Source: Sphaerochaeta associata (GTDB taxonomy: Bacteria > Spirochaetota > Spirochaetia > Sphaerochaetales > Sphaerochaetaceae). Taken from it: a DNA stretch of 64,000 nucleotides. Under the pieces are notes generated by a model, which had not been told where the DNA came from, did not search any database, and saw only the letters and a program-made list of their open reading frames with translations. Shown here piece by piece: positions 15,085 through 64,000 of this stretch (position 1 is its first letter; each line of letters starts with the position of its first letter). A program made the translations under genes and the position numbers. The stretch spans positions 1,364,001-1,428,000 of the forward strand of contig NZ_CP094929.1 of assembly GCF_022869165.1 (NCBI RefSeq), in the 5' to 3' direction.

Positions 15085-15654
15085 ATGGCACAGATGACAA
15101 AACTAGCACTCGCCCAATCGCTGAAACAGCTGATGGCTGAACGAACCTTGGATAAAATCACCGTAAAGGAGATTGTGACTCGTTGCGGAGTCAATCGGCA
15201 GACATTTTATTATCATTTCAAGGATATCTATGATTTGCTCGATTGGATGTTCGTCAATGAGGGACAGGAGTTCTCCCGCAGATACCCCGACAGCAGATCG
15301 AACGATGATGGTGAGTCCGCAATCCGCAATATGTGCTCATACCTCAGGGAGAACAAGCAGATGGTTGTCAACATCTACCATAGTCTTGGTCGCGAATTGC
15401 TTGATCGATATCTGTGTCGTGAGATGGCCAAGCTTTTGCATACTACCCTCGGTTACCGGGCACAAGTCTTTGGTGCTACAGAAGATGATCTTGCTTACTT
15501 GATTGCATTCTACAAGCATGCGTTTGTAGGATCCCTGCTCGATTGGGTGCATGACGGCCTGCCTGGCGATATTGACGATATCGTGCAGAAAATGGTTCCA
15601 ATATTGCAAGGAACCTTCGATGCGGCCCTGAAAAGGATGGCTTTGAGACGTTAA
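15085..15654 (+). CDS. TetR-family transcriptional regulator
   Basis: A 189-residue regulator. Residues about 8-55 hold the TetR helix-turn-helix, with ITVKEIVTRCGVNRQTFYYH as the recognition region. The C-terminal part (DLAYLIAFYKHAFVGSLLDW) resembles the TetR_C domain found in DhaS-like proteins. It is immediately upstream of the chaperone-usher pair but separated by 94 bases with a separate candidate promoter, so control of those genes is possible but not shown. Confidence 0.88.
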   Translation: MAQMTKLALAQSLKQLMAERTLDKITVKEIVTRCGVNRQTFYYHFKDIYDLLDWMFVNEGQEFSRRYPDSRSNDDGESAIRNMCSYLRENKQMVVNIYHSLGRELLDRYLCREMAKLLHTTLGYRAQVFGATEDDLAYLIAFYKHAFVGSLLDWVHDGLPGDIDDIVQKMVPILQGTFDAALKRMALRR

Positions 15655-15748: not shown

Positions 15749-16513
15749 ATGAATCAAAGTGCGAAAAAATCAACGAAGAGGGTAGTGCTGACGCTGGGGT
15801 TGCTCTTGCTCCTGCTCTCTTCTGTTCATGCGTATCAGTTTTCTCCGTTGGAACAATCCTTCCAGCCAACCGGTGCAGAAAGTACAAAGACGTACACCAT
15901 CGTAAATGACAGTAACGATTCAATCGCCATCAGCATTTCAGCTCTCATCCGCGATCAAGACGCACAAGGGAATGAAGTGAACACCCCCGCAGACGCCTAC
16001 TTCTCCATCGTTCCCAACAAGCTGGTGGTTCCACCCCAGAGCAGTTGGGTCGTTCGAGTGCAGTATCGTGGACCTAGAACCGTCACCAATGAACTATCTT
16101 TCAGGCTTAAGGCTGAACAAATCCCCTATTCACAGGGTAGGGCAAGCACTGACAAGGGAATGTTCAATTTCCTGTACATCTATACAACCAGTTTGTATGT
16201 GCTTCCCTCCCGCGTAGTTGAAAACGTTGCAATCCGATCGGTTGCCGCCTCCACCATGGACGATGGTTCTCCCGCTCTAGGCGTTACGTTGGCTAATCTC
16301 GGCACCGTACACCAATTGCTTATTTCAGCAGTTGTGGAAATCAAGGACAGCAAAGGAAATTCTGTAGTATTGCAAGGTGCTGAAGCTCTTCCCGGCATTG
16401 ATGGCATGAATATACTGGCTAAGAAAACCGTAACCAAGAAGGTTCCTTGGCCCGAAGGGCTTTCCCGTGATTCAGGGGTAACCTATCAAGCCACCATCAA
16501 GTATACAAAGTAG
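15749..16513 (+). CDS. PapD-like periplasmic pilus chaperone
   Basis: A 254-residue exported protein. A signal peptide ends near residue 28 (SSVHA). The mature protein starts with a beta-rich domain containing YTIVNDSNDSIAISISA and FSIVPNKLVVPPQSSWVVRV, the pattern of the first PapD-like domain, in which a chaperone donates a strand to pilin subunits. A second beta domain follows (VTLANLGTVHQLLISAVVEI). It sits 42 bases upstream of the usher-like gene, and the pair forms the core of a chaperone-usher secretion pathway. It belongs to the divergent (non-classical) type; the family placement is by pattern only. Confidence 0.8.
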   Translation: MNQSAKKSTKRVVLTLGLLLLLLSSVHAYQFSPLEQSFQPTGAESTKTYTIVNDSNDSIAISISALIRDQDAQGNEVNTPADAYFSIVPNKLVVPPQSSWVVRVQYRGPRTVTNELSFRLKAEQIPYSQGRASTDKGMFNFLYIYTTSLYVLPSRVVENVAIRSVAASTMDDGSPALGVTLANLGTVHQLLISAVVEIKDSKGNSVVLQGAEALPGIDGMNILAKKTVTKKVPWPEGLSRDSGVTYQATIKYTK

Positions 16514-16555
16514 TTGAAGGAGTCTTCTCCTTCCTGATTAAGAAAGGGCTTTTAA

Positions 16556-19500
16556 ATGAAGAGAAGAGGGTTTGCACACGCAGTGTTCCTGTTGGTCTTG
16601 CTTGTGCTCATGACCCTCTTTCTTTCTGCCTTTATATGGACTTGTTTCCACCAACCGGTTGGAATACATCAACCCGCTCCAATACAGGTTGCCTCTCCGG
16701 TCTTGCCGGAACCCAAACCCGAAGTTGAACCATCGGTGTTGCTGCCCGAAGAGCCTCCTCTCCCACGCGTTCCCTCCCTTCCACGGTTCAGCGGCCAACC
16801 GGTTGTTGAGCAGATCAAGGCGGAAATCAAACCGCTGCCGCCACCGGTTCATCTGATTTCCCTTCCTATCATCAAACCAATTGAGAAAGTCGAGGTCCCG
16901 CCGGCTCCCTCCTTTGCAGGCCCGCCCACCGTCAAGGCTTTTGTACCCGATCCTCCCTACATGTTTGAACCCTTGGTACTCTCCGAGGAAGAGTTTGACA
17001 TGTTCTATCCTCAAAGCCCTGCAATCGATTCGACTTCAGATGATTTTTGGGCCGATTTCTTCGTAGTCGGCCAGGATGCAACGATTGCATTCGAGGATGG
17101 CTTCTACTTCCTCAATCTGTTTGTGAACGACGAACGGGTGGGGGATATCGAGGTAGAGTTCGCACAGGAGCAGAGGCTTCTCAGTACCGAGGACCTTACC
17201 TACTATGTCGGGACCTATATCACCAAGGACGCTTACGAGCGTATCTTCGGGGATGGATTGACGTATCTTTCCTTGGAAGACTTGATGAATCGGGGGGTTG
17301 ATGCCCGCTACGATGCAGTGGAATTTGCAGTGTATTTGAATTTCAGCATCGCCGATATGCCCGAACGCTCGGTCAGCGTGACTTCTTCCTCCATCAACCG
17401 CCGGGAGCAGTACGGCATGAGCGGGGCCATCGTACTCAAACCGGCCAAATTTGCCTTGGCAAGTTCGTTGAGCCTCTATGCAATGATGGATTATCCATCC
17501 GATTTCACGCAGATCAACAACCAACTCGTCTCGCTTTCAGTCTCCAACAGGGCATCGCTGTTGGGAATCGGCCTGAACTTCTACTTCTCGCTCTCTTCGA
17601 AAGCCCCGGTGTATAATCCAGGCAGCTGGAACGGCTTCTATGATTTTGTTGAATCGAACCATCGGCTCAGCTTCGGCAATGTCGGAACCAGCCTCAGCTC
17701 GGTTGGCAGTGCTTCCACCAATTTCGGGTTCACCTTTGAAAAGAACTACGCATTCGGAACCGGCAGTGCCAAAGGCAACCAGTTCGAGTACCGAATTGTG
17801 TTGGTCGAAACATCCACGGTGGACATTTCGATAAACGGGGAGATTGTATTCAGCCGCAAGTTTGCGGCGGGTACCTATCGGCTTCGTGATTTCGTATTTA
17901 CCCAGGGTGCAAACCAGATAAAGATTACCATCACACCCGAGGCCCACCCGGATGATATCCAAGTCGAGTATGTCGACATGGGCTATGACTACCGCCTCCT
18001 GGGCAAGGGTGATACGCTCTATGGCTTCGGCTTCAGTGTTCCCAAGGTAAAGAGTACAAGTGCAGGGGCGTTGATCAACCTGCCATGGCTGGATAACCAA
18101 TACCTTTCTTACTATATAGATAAATTCACGGCAACCTATTATCAGCAGACCGGCTTGACCGATACCTTCACCTTCACCACCGACCTTGCGTTCAGTCCGG
18201 GTGTTTTCAGTGGTACGGTGAATGGAGTACTTGCTTCCTTGGTCGGGACTTCTCAGATTCAGCTCACGCTCGGCCTGGATGCAAGCAAGCGCACTCCTTC
18301 GTTTGCAGGAAGTTTGAGTCATAGAATGAGCGGCAGGCAGGATGGCAAGCTGGGTACCATCAGCGCGACCTTGAACCACAGCATACCCGCCCGAACGGCC
18401 ACCGACGCCTACTCTTCCGTTTCAACGCTATCCCTTTCGTATTCGGGCAGTTTCACCGAGAAAATCCGCTACACACTCTCGGGAAACCTGATCTACAATA
18501 CCACTTCTGCAAACCCCAGCTGGAGTCTTTCGTTCGCCTCGGGCTTCTCCCCCTTCAAGGGCTTCTCCCTCAGCGGTTCGATAACGGCGAATGGTAGCAA
18601 CACAGCCCCGCTCAGCCCAACGGTATCGGCGCAGATCAGCGGCAGTTACTCCTTCAGTCCCAAGCTCAGCGCCAACTCTTCGACGAGCATCCAAAGCGGG
18701 AGTCCTTTCTTTGACGTATCGGCCACCAGTTCCGCCGGTTTGAGTTGGAGGCCCACAAGCAATGACAATCTCAACCTTTCAATCAGTTCCTTCAAGTTCG
18801 ACGATCCCAAGAACCACTCCGTCGTCGGCTCATGGTCTCACAGCGGCAATCTCAGCTCATTCTCTCTCAGACAGCAAATCTCCAACTCTTATCAGAACAT
18901 GTCCACTACTTTTACGGCCAACACCTCGTTTGCGTATGCCGATGGAGCGTTCGCAATCGGGAAGGCTGTGAATGAATCCTTCCTGCTGGTTAAACCGGTC
19001 GGTGAATTGAGCAAGAGTGATGTGTCGGTTGCCCGCAGTCTTGATAGTGCTCCTTCATATCTTCCGAGGCCGCTGGGCAGTGCGTTGTACAACAACATCT
19101 CCACGAACGTAAAGAACAGCGTGGTTGTTTTCTCAAGCGGTGCAACCGAGTATTCGACCGGTTCTTCCTTCGTCTACGAGATTACGCCCAGAAGCCGGCA
19201 GTCTTTTGTCGCAAAACTGGATGTCGAGCCTGCTTTCACGGTAAGCGGCGTACTGCTGATGGCTGATGGTAGTCCGTATATTCAGTATTCATCGCCTGTC
19301 TACAAAGTGGCGATCGACGAGACCGCTGGTGAGGAACTCATCCGTGATGATGCCTTGTATCTCTTCACCGATCAGGAGGGCCGATTCATCCTCAGCGAGG
19401 TGAAGAGCGGTACCTATCTCTTTGATCTGCAAGTCAAGGATTTATGGTATGCCGTTCGGTTCACTGTTCCTGAGATACAGTCTGAAAAACTGGGGTTGGA

Positions 19501-19858
19501 CCGAGTTCTCCTGCTTGAGGATTTCTGGGTCGCCGACCCGGCATTCGAGCAGCGGATAGTCGTAACGGATGTCTTCACCGGTGAGCAGGTCGAAGAGGAG
19601 GAGGACGTGTTCGGTGCCGAACTTACAGTAGGCTACGATGCAGAGGTGACACTCGATGTTGTCGACCGAATCAGTGAAGAGACCTTCTGGACAATTATTT
19701 TCCCGCCGTTTGATGAAAGTGATTTCAGCTTTGAGATGTTTGATGAAAGCTACGTAACCGATGCCGATTTCCAGTTTGATGAGAGCCTTTTCGACGAAAT
19801 GATCGATGAAGGCGAGCAGGATGCAACGGCACAACAGGTGTTTACCGCCGCCCCCTAA
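16556..19858 (+). CDS. Usher-like outer-membrane protein with N-terminal anchor and proline-rich linker
   Basis: A 1100-residue protein. Residues about 10-30 are a hydrophobic helix with no obvious signal-peptidase site. A Pro/Glu/Val-rich linker (about 35-145) follows, like the periplasm-spanning part of TonB. Then comes a usher-like N-terminal region (FFVVGQDATIAFEDGFYFLN, FVNDERVG). Around 418-460 is a plug-like module (VDISINGEIVFSRKF, GTYRLRDF). A long serine-rich beta-strand region to about 880 fits an outer-membrane barrel. A carboxypeptidase-regulatory-like domain lies at 890-975 (TVSGVLLMADGSP). The acidic C-terminus repeats FDES three times (1052, 1062, 1074). It would assemble subunits delivered by the upstream chaperone. 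The anchor is not normal for ushers. Confidence 0.75.
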   Translation: MKRRGFAHAVFLLVLLVLMTLFLSAFIWTCFHQPVGIHQPAPIQVASPVLPEPKPEVEPSVLLPEEPPLPRVPSLPRFSGQPVVEQIKAEIKPLPPPVHLISLPIIKPIEKVEVPPAPSFAGPPTVKAFVPDPPYMFEPLVLSEEEFDMFYPQSPAIDSTSDDFWADFFVVGQDATIAFEDGFYFLNLFVNDERVGDIEVEFAQEQRLLSTEDLTYYVGTYITKDAYERIFGDGLTYLSLEDLMNRGVDARYDAVEFAVYLNFSIADMPERSVSVTSSSINRREQYGMSGAIVLKPAKFALASSLSLYAMMDYPSDFTQINNQLVSLSVSNRASLLGIGLNFYFSLSSKAPVYNPGSWNGFYDFVESNHRLSFGNVGTSLSSVGSASTNFGFTFEKNYAFGTGSAKGNQFEYRIVLVETSTVDISINGEIVFSRKFAAGTYRLRDFVFTQGANQIKITITPEAHPDDIQVEYVDMGYDYRLLGKGDTLYGFGFSVPKVKSTSAGALINLPWLDNQYLSYYIDKFTATYYQQTGLTDTFTFTTDLAFSPGVFSGTVNGVLASLVGTSQIQLTLGLDASKRTPSFAGSLSHRMSGRQDGKLGTISATLNHSIPARTATDAYSSVSTLSLSYSGSFTEKIRYTLSGNLIYNTTSANPSWSLSFASGFSPFKGFSLSGSITANGSNTAPLSPTVSAQISGSYSFSPKLSANSSTSIQSGSPFFDVSATSSAGLSWRPTSNDNLNLSISSFKFDDPKNHSVVGSWSHSGNLSSFSLRQQISNSYQNMSTTFTANTSFAYADGAFAIGKAVNESFLLVKPVGELSKSDVSVARSLDSAPSYLPRPLGSALYNNISTNVKNSVVVFSSGATEYSTGSSFVYEITPRSRQSFVAKLDVEPAFTVSGVLLMADGSPYIQYSSPVYKVAIDETAGEELIRDDALYLFTDQEGRFILSEVKSGTYLFDLQVKDLWYAVRFTVPEIQSEKLGLDRVLLLEDFWVADPAFEQRIVVTDVFTGEQVEEEEDVFGAELTVGYDAEVTLDVVDRISEETFWTIIFPPFDESDFSFEMFDESYVTDADFQFDESLFDEMIDEGEQDATAQQVFTAAP

Positions 19859-62292: not shown

Positions 62293-63366
62293 CTAGATGG
62301 TATCGATTGGGGTGATATTGACGGTGATGGTATCAGAATAGATGCCAGCAGGGGCCATCTCAGCCTTGAAGCTGTCCACTCGTGTCACTTGAATATCCTT
62401 GGTGAAAGTTCCTTCGCCCAGCCCTGTCCAACCAATAGGCGATCCGCCCGTTACATCCTGACCGTTGAACCGCAAGGTATAGGGGATTGCATATAAATTG
62501 GAAAGTCCATCCAGATGCAAACTGAAGTGAGGACTGTTGGAGCGGTTGCTGAACACCACATGCACCCCGTAGGTGGTGTCGGCAGCTGCATTGGTTATCA
62601 CCAATTGGGCGCGGGCCACACGTGCCACGTTCGACCCGTATGCCTGGGATATGGTGAAGCTCTGATTATCGTATATGGAGAGCAGGTAACTGACAGGTGC
62701 AGAGGGCTGACCGAACGGGACTGGCTGGGGTGGGGCGGACGTTCCGCTGGACAGAAGCGGAGTTGTCACTTGCGGGTCATTGTTGTTGACCGGCACAAGC
62801 GTTTCATTTCCCGGCCAATAGCCGCTTCCGCTATTTGCTACCGCTACTTGAAAGCCTCCAAAGGTTCCACTAGTCAGCGTGTACTGAGCCCCGCTCTTAT
62901 ATCGCCACCAATCCTGGTCGCTTACCAGATAGAACTCGGCAGTGAATGTCGAAACGTTGAGATTGCCGTTCTCTGTGCGCAGCGGCTGCGATCCATCACT
63001 TTGCCACAGCGGGTTGGCTTGAGTGACGCCTTTGACGGTGGACACTGCATACAGCGTGAAGTATGTCGCCTGATTCACATAGACTGGAAGACCTGTCTGC
63101 CAATCATTGCTCCAGGTGATCGGGCCGGTGAACTGGAAACTGGTGGAAAGGTTGACATTGAGGATGTTCGGATCAAAGAGCTGATTGCCCACAGGCTTTA
63201 TGGTCAGCGTACCCATATGCGCCACCAGTTTATTAGTATTCAAGGGACTGAATCCCTGCTCAAAATAGAGCGAATCCTTGGGTACCCAGGTCGCAGTAAT
63301 TTGAGCTGACAGCTGAAAGGATATCGCTGAGAGAAATACCAATAAAAGTGTCCGAATTTTTCCCAT
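62293..63366 (-). CDS. Secreted pilin-like protein of chaperone-usher type
   Basis: A 357-residue exported protein, start MGKIRTLLLV with a signal peptide ending near FQLSA. It is beta-rich, rich in Ser, Thr and Asn, and has no Cys. The C-terminus GIYSDTITVNITP ends in the alternating hydrophobic strand typical of subunits recognised by pilus chaperones (spore-coat-U-like, G-Y-x-D-T-V/I-T-V). There is a Pro-rich stretch (SSGTSAPPQPVPFGQPSAP) in the middle. It is a paralogue of the gene at 63428. No Shine-Dalgarno sequence is clear. Confidence 0.7.
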   Translation of the reverse strand: MGKIRTLLLVFLSAISFQLSAQITATWVPKDSLYFEQGFSPLNTNKLVAHMGTLTIKPVGNQLFDPNILNVNLSTSFQFTGPITWSNDWQTGLPVYVNQATYFTLYAVSTVKGVTQANPLWQSDGSQPLRTENGNLNVSTFTAEFYLVSDQDWWRYKSGAQYTLTSGTFGGFQVAVANSGSGYWPGNETLVPVNNNDPQVTTPLLSSGTSAPPQPVPFGQPSAPVSYLLSIYDNQSFTISQAYGSNVARVARAQLVITNAAADTTYGVHVVFSNRSNSPHFSLHLDGLSNLYAIPYTLRFNGQDVTGGSPIGWTGLGEGTFTKDIQVTRVDSFKAEMAPAGIYSDTITVNITPIDTI

Positions 63367-63427
63367 ACGCAAATGCTATAGAAGACTTGATGGTTAGGCA
63401 AGAGTGGTAGCTCAGTGATAAAAAATC

Positions 63428-64000
63428 CTACAGTGGCGTGATGGTTACCGTAATGGTATCGACATAGGTTCCTTCGACCGCCCGTTCGGCGATGGCCTGG
63501 CTGACAGTCGGGATTCGGACGCTGATGTCCTTGGAATTGATATTCACTTTATCCAGATTCAACCAGTCATAGGAAACCGATGGTTGGATGGCAATGCCGC
63601 CGAATACCAGGGAATAGGGGATGAAATATACGAAGGCTGGAGAAGCATCCTTGTGTTGCAGGCGGAAATAGTCCGGGGTATCGTTTGCCCCGGTAAACTT
63701 GACCTGTACCTTGTAGTCATACTTGTCGGGGTCCGTGCCCACCAACTGCAAATTGGCCGTTGCGATGGAAATATTGTTCGTGTATGCATCAGTGAGGATG
63801 AAATCAGGCTTTTTTACAATGGAAAAGTCATACTTGGTATGATAGACAGGCGGACCATAGGGAAGCGGCTCGGGTACAGCAGTCCCCGTAGCAAGGAAGG
63901 GCGCCGGTGCCGCTGGGGGATCGCCGTTCTCCGGGATGACTTGCCCGTTTACGGGAATGAAATCATAGGTGTTTGTATTGGTTGTCTTCTTCGTTTGGAC
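63428..64000 (-). CDS. Secreted pilin-like protein, C-terminal part (runs off the window)
   Basis: The frame is open to the right edge, so the N-terminus lies outside. The visible 190 residues resemble the preceding gene: FIPVNGQVIPENGDPP, then a Pro-rich segment ending EPLPYGPPVYH, then a beta-rich domain, and a C-terminal end GTYVDTITVTITPL. This is the same DTITV end. It was probably duplicated from its neighbour and could be a second subunit. No start codon was found in the window. Confidence 0.7.
   Translation of the reverse strand, partial: VQTKKTTNTNTYDFIPVNGQVIPENGDPPAAPAPFLATGTAVPEPLPYGPPVYHTKYDFSIVKKPDFILTDAYTNNISIATANLQLVGTDPDKYDYKVQVKFTGANDTPDYFRLQHKDASPAFVYFIPYSLVFGGIAIQPSVSYDWLNLDKVNINSKDISVRIPTVSQAIAERAVEGTYVDTITVTITPL

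Follow-up and report, generated by a model that had tools for sequence, protein, structure and literature searches.

An archaic-like chaperone-usher locus in Sphaerochaeta associata with an usher predicted to be anchored in the inner membrane

The stretch of DNA analysed here (the window) comprises 64,000 nucleotides of Sphaerochaeta associata, a spirochaete of the order Sphaerochaetales (NCBI RefSeq assembly GCF_022869165.1, contig NZ_CP094929.1, positions 1,364,001 to 1,428,000 of the forward strand). At positions 15749–19858 the window contains a gene for a PapD-like chaperone followed by a gene for a 1100-residue usher, both on the plus strand and separated by 42 bases. A first-pass annotation made from the sequence alone had proposed this pair, and both open reading frames lie where it placed them, with homologues and the folds of AlphaFold (AF2) models in support. 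The two genes and the parts of the usher are as follows.

15749..16513, plus strand: PapD-like chaperone gene, 254 amino acids, putatively of archaic/alternative type, with a predicted cleavable signal peptide ending in SSVHA before YQF.
16556..19858, plus strand: usher gene with a predicted inner-membrane anchor, 1100 amino acids (homologues and AF2 fold).
16571..16648, plus strand: predicted transmembrane helix of the usher, residues 6–31 (AF2 model and sequence).
16649..17083, plus strand: predicted disordered, Pro/Glu-rich linker of the usher, residues 32–176 (low model confidence and composition).
17099..17377, plus strand: predicted N-terminal domain (alpha/beta) of the usher, residues 182–274 (AF2 model; the alignment with 3rfz_E begins at residue 177).
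17450..18961, plus strand: predicted beta-barrel of the usher, residues 299–802, with a plug-like insert at 412–477 (AF2 model and structure search).
19115..19468, plus strand: predicted C-terminal beta-sandwich domains of the usher, residues ~854–971 (AF2 model and structure search).

Single proteins of the window gave only chance matches when compared with Pfam, NCBIfam, and PDB sequences, and profiles of relatives were needed. Pfam PapD_N was matched by 31 of 33 chaperone homologues (best 7.6e-10). The AF2 alignments were built from 62–65 sequences, and the resulting chaperone model has a predicted local distance difference test (pLDDT) score of 88 and consists of two beta-sandwich (immunoglobulin-like) domains. 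Its top Foldseek matches were all chaperones, and CsuC (archaic) together with CfaA and EcpB (alternative) ranked top in both Foldseek and VIA-align. The VIA-align comparison with CsuC gave a Z of 13.9 over 182 residues, but because classical chaperones trail closely at Z 12.7, the assignment to the non-classical type rests more on sequence marks. A proline, Pro59 in CsuC and Pro60 in EcpB, has been called invariant across the chaperone superfamily, and an arginine of domain 1 (Arg89) that binds the subunit C-terminus has been named as the trait most typical of the non-classical chaperones (PMC4654587). Mapped through the EcpB alignment, the proline corresponds to P89 of the window chaperone, which is invariant in the alignments of 33 and 62 sequences, and Arg89 corresponds to R119, which is conserved at 90% or more in both. 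Judged from its model and these residues, the product of 15749–16513 is a PapD-like, non-classical (archaic/alternative) periplasmic chaperone. The model also resembles WxLIP of Enterococcus faecium, which belongs to a Gram-positive surface system, over about 200 residues (Z 12.4).

The usher is more divergent in sequence, and Pfam PF00577 (Usher) was matched by only 6 of 35 usher homologues (best 6.3e-6). The structure prediction that the first-pass annotation had proposed as a test has given a model of pLDDT 78 whose barrel fits an usher. All 19 of its best Foldseek matches were FimD/PapC ushers (best E 9.8e-30), the alignment with 3rfz_E spans residues 177–993 of the model, and VIA-align placed FimD at Z 22.6 over 627 residues, ahead of the first unrelated barrels at Z 16.7. 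As modelled, the 1100-residue protein is a true usher, in which a barrel with a plug lies between the N-terminal domain and the C-terminal domains. FimD and PapC have the same parts, at an identity of 10–15%, but they lack the linker and lose their signal peptide by cleavage.

The chaperone-usher pair is widely distributed in the order. Usher matches were found in 104 of 139 Sphaerochaetales genomes and chaperone matches in 105 of 139, and in nearly every locus holding both genes the chaperone precedes the usher with a short gap. The recurrence of the same pair, order and architecture across the order is far beyond chance. A chaperone profile run over 393 genomes sampled across the phylum matched 30 genomes inside the order and 9 of about 357 outside it. 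By these counts such systems are rare across the spirochaetes as a whole, as had been claimed of the phylum, but nearly universal in Sphaerochaetales. Archaic systems have been described from Proteobacteria, Cyanobacteria, and Deinococcus-Thermus, and spirochaetes are not among these groups (PMC4654587, PMC10104325). No report on spirochaete chaperone-usher systems or on anchored ushers was found in the open-licence literature, outside which most subscription journals lie. Some loci depart from the usual layout. One genome (G008) holds two different anchored chaperone-usher loci (L073 and L074), and another (G061, L076) holds two chaperones near one usher. Two further genomes have an usher gene broken into two reading frames close to residue 340 (L016:506-3825 in G110 and L010:1089-4403 in G111). 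Phase variation was considered for these split genes; a CT tract lies near the G110 split, but intact relatives have a tract of equal length, so it gives the idea no support.

The first-pass annotation had described the N-terminal membrane helix of the usher as not looking cleavable. In the window protein an uncharged run of 23 residues starts at residue 9, with K/R before it and the next K/R only at residue 54. A long N-terminal hydrophobic stretch and a linker occur in 65 of 65 usher relatives examined, so that the architecture sought in other Sphaerochaeta genomes recurs across the order, and in all 65 the stretch looks like an anchor. One helix was scored in 43 relatives, three in 14, five in 4 and two in 4; three of these last four show a weaker first stretch, and one remains at two. 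An odd number of helices would place the linker outside the cytoplasm, in the periplasm, if the N-terminus is inside. Where three or five helices are present, the N-terminus is no signal peptide. The mean number of K+R is 3.7 before the helix versus 1.7 in the 20 residues after it, and 34 of the 43 single-helix ushers have more K/R on the N-terminal side of the helix than on the other side. Among Sphaerochaeta ushers the mean identity is 56% for residues 1–31, 54–74% for the folded domains and 30% for the linker; in the chaperones of the same genus it is 40% for the signal peptide and 93% and 75% for the two domains. The helix and linker are missing from all 11 ushers examined from other spirochaete families, most of which begin with a plain signal peptide, although the start codon is uncertain for some of the 11.

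It has to be considered that the helix is an unusual signal peptide, either of type I or of a lipoprotein with Cys30, and that its removal leaves an archaic usher that is ordinary apart from a long tail in the periplasm. To our knowledge, all characterised ushers have a cleaved signal peptide. A cysteine near the helix end is present in 15 of 16 aligned Sphaerochaeta sequences and in 35 of the 65 relatives, and proteolysis of the linker after insertion is also possible. Removal is nevertheless unlikely, as 30 of the 65 have no such cysteine and only 5 conform to a lipobox, the ushers of Ornithospirochaeta have three or five helices, the helix is conserved nearly as well as the folded domains, and the uncharged run of 23 residues exceeds the 15 of the chaperone signal peptide. 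Known ushers usually start with a cleaved signal peptide, which is no part of their fold, but that is not what is predicted for this N-terminus. From helix number, charge, conservation and the lack of a cleavage site, the helix is predicted to be an inner-membrane anchor retained in the mature protein. The outcome named in the first-pass annotation as a refutation, a cleaved signal peptide together with a barrel unlike that of an usher, did not arise.

The same annotation had compared the linker with TonB and put it at about 110 residues. The likeness is one of layout only: in TonB, too, a helix in the inner membrane leads into a linker rich in Pro and Glu that can span the periplasm. The linker is a little longer than stated: 134 residues separate the helix window from the domain start in the window usher (Pro 24%, Asp+Glu 12%), and the 65 relatives have linkers with a median of 148 residues that are rich in Pro, Glu, and Asp. 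An extended chain measures about 0.31 nm per residue, and 134 residues would therefore reach about 40 nm, more than the usual periplasm. The SxxxH motif of TonB is also absent, and the usher ends in a predicted outer-membrane barrel and has no TonB domain. The TonB-like layout admits a further possibility, that the anchor couples the usher to a motor of the ExbB/ExbD type and that secretion is energised in the manner of TonB. Three Sphaerochaeta genomes, the own one, G091, and G093, have pilin genes or arrays that adjoin a gene cluster with tonB-like, exbB-like and receptor-like members (L132:7902-12534, L260:4595-12700, and L261:8972-16849), an arrangement that would be in keeping with such coupling. 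However, SxxxH is missing in Sphaerochaeta, and any SxxxH occurs in the first 60 residues of only 3 of the 65 relatives; an energy link of this kind is unlikely for that reason. As no motor gene was found at the usher locus and known ushers need no energy source, we regard a motor-driven usher as barely credible.

The subunits of chaperone-usher systems are usually encoded in the same operon as the chaperone and usher (PMC10104325). This is the arrangement in other spirochaete families (L111, L112, L114, L115, L117, L118, and L263–L265), in which homologous chaperones (E to 1e-56) and ushers of about 790–900 amino acids, lacking the helix and linker, share one operon with pilins of 150–200 amino acids and a tip protein of about 310–350 amino acids of the same families as those discussed below. 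Two matching tips from these families contain an SCPU domain (E 7e-12 and 3e-12). Profiles were built from the operon pilins, followed by a richer profile, and single-domain pilins have been found elsewhere in Sphaerochaetales genomes, the richer profile matching 71 of 138. The Sphaerochaeta pilins matched the operon pilins with a profile probability of 98.8% (E 8e-17). A system working with no subunits had been considered and was dropped once these searches had found candidates. Two single-domain pilin candidates lie in the own genome (G000:C1:724901-725503 and 782362-783003), along with five candidates of the two-domain, tip-like kind, four of them clustered at 1426293–1431300 and one at 1879505–1880539. 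The tip-like family matched the SCPU tips at 89% probability (E 2e-6). The first two members of the cluster reach into the window.

62293..63372, minus strand: candidate two-domain tip-like subunit, 359 amino acids, with a C-terminal pilin-like domain (pilin profile E 7e-7); first of the cluster.
63428..64000, minus strand: another candidate tip-like subunit, second of the cluster, truncated where the window ends (full length 364 amino acids, L259:1929-3023).

The genome thus encodes candidate subunits of the donor-strand type. Behind the anchored usher of Ornithospirochaeta (genus g11) come two pilin genes, a gene for a protein of about 470 amino acids with a subunit-like end, and more pilin genes, often with overlapping stop and start codons. 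Because pilins stand directly behind the anchored usher there, the anchored usher is tied to fibre building. Pilins were found in 69 of 104 genomes with an usher versus 2 of 35 without, both of the latter incomplete (Fisher p 9e-11, a value inflated by shared ancestry). Within g11 the co-occurrence was 13 of 36 versus 0 of 12 (p 0.02), and within g2 it was 7 of 13 versus 0 of 3 (p 0.21).

Taken together, the folds, the conserved pair, the architecture of the anchor and the subunit families probably represent an archaic-like chaperone-usher pilus system in which the usher is leashed to the inner membrane. With the archaic (sigma) pili, such as Csu of Acinetobacter baumannii and CupE of Pseudomonas aeruginosa, the system shares the chaperone fold, the non-classical proline and arginine, and the usher fold, and its pilins and two-domain tip-like proteins are related to the SCPU type. 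It differs from them in the N-terminal helix and the linker of 100–200 residues that the usher keeps, and in the subunits of Sphaerochaeta, which lie outside the operon. As in established chaperone-usher biology, subunits would enter the periplasm via Sec, would be held there by the chaperone through donor-strand complementation and handed over to the usher N-terminal domain, and would be polymerised and secreted as a surface fibre by the usher barrel in the outer membrane. The usher itself would stay in the inner membrane by its N-terminal helix, with the disordered linker of about 100–200 residues crossing the periplasm to the barrel. Two purposes would fit such a leash best, holding the usher close to subunits as they arrive or transmitting the pulling force of the fibre to the inner membrane.

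Several points weigh against this reading. The retention of the anchor on the mature usher is a prediction from sequence. The window usher falls below the cut-off of PF00577, and nothing over the own genome reaches it, although this miss is a detection limit and not a defining trait. Among the open reading frames of the window and at the locus, no subunit gene was found beside the chaperone-usher pair; in Sphaerochaeta the pair and the subunits are unlinked, the latter lying elsewhere in the genome. Thirty-five usher-bearing genomes gave no pilin match at E 1e-4, which may reflect divergent pilins or missing contigs. Pili on Sphaerochaetales are not documented in the literature covered here, with the same limit of access.

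The leash may also bear on the cell envelope. The OmpA wall-binding domain PF00691 has no match in the own genome and the transpeptidase family PF00905 has one match only, counts that point to an unusual cell wall, and with these counts one may speculate that the leash matters for the envelope. We give even chances to the wider proposal that a single chain is fixed in both membranes throughout the order, so that the pilus base is covalently tied and fibre force acts on the inner membrane, and that the leash may help to hold an envelope lacking wall links of the OmpA type. The same two counts, and the lack of a subunit gene beside the pair in Sphaerochaeta, would also suit a pair that has lost fibre assembly and now serves mainly as a structural tie between the membranes. 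This is very unlikely, as the chaperone is strongly conserved, including its subunit-binding proline and arginine, the usher retains its N-terminal domain, plug and C-terminal domains, and the same genomes also contain pilin families, which in Ornithospirochaeta are directly linked to the usher.

An usher with an inner-membrane anchor and leash is a design that was not found described for any usher in the literature covered, most subscription journals again lying outside it. If the leashed usher is real, its barrel would remain joined to the inner membrane, contrary to the usual rule by which outer-membrane proteins are released before insertion by the barrel assembly machinery. It would then offer a natural test of coupling between the membranes and of the shortest leash that still allows the barrel to be inserted. 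The system also places pilus machinery of archaic type in spirochaetes, within an order from guts and sediments for whose adhesion an explanation is lacking. The family that carries the pair consists of round, non-motile spirochaetes, and the anchored barrel would be a trait of the whole order that is testable in cultured strains.

Two features of the surroundings of the pair are also recorded. The gap between the chaperone and usher genes (window 16514–16555) contains a hairpin, GAAGGAGtcttCTCCTTC. A hairpin is kept in this gap in other Sphaerochaeta with stems that differ in sequence, and this conservation suggests a role in setting the chaperone:usher ratio. Immediately upstream of the chaperone gene, on the same strand, lies a gene for a TetR-like regulator (window 15085–15654), and the regulator keeps this position in 15 further loci from Sphaerochaeta and its near relatives.

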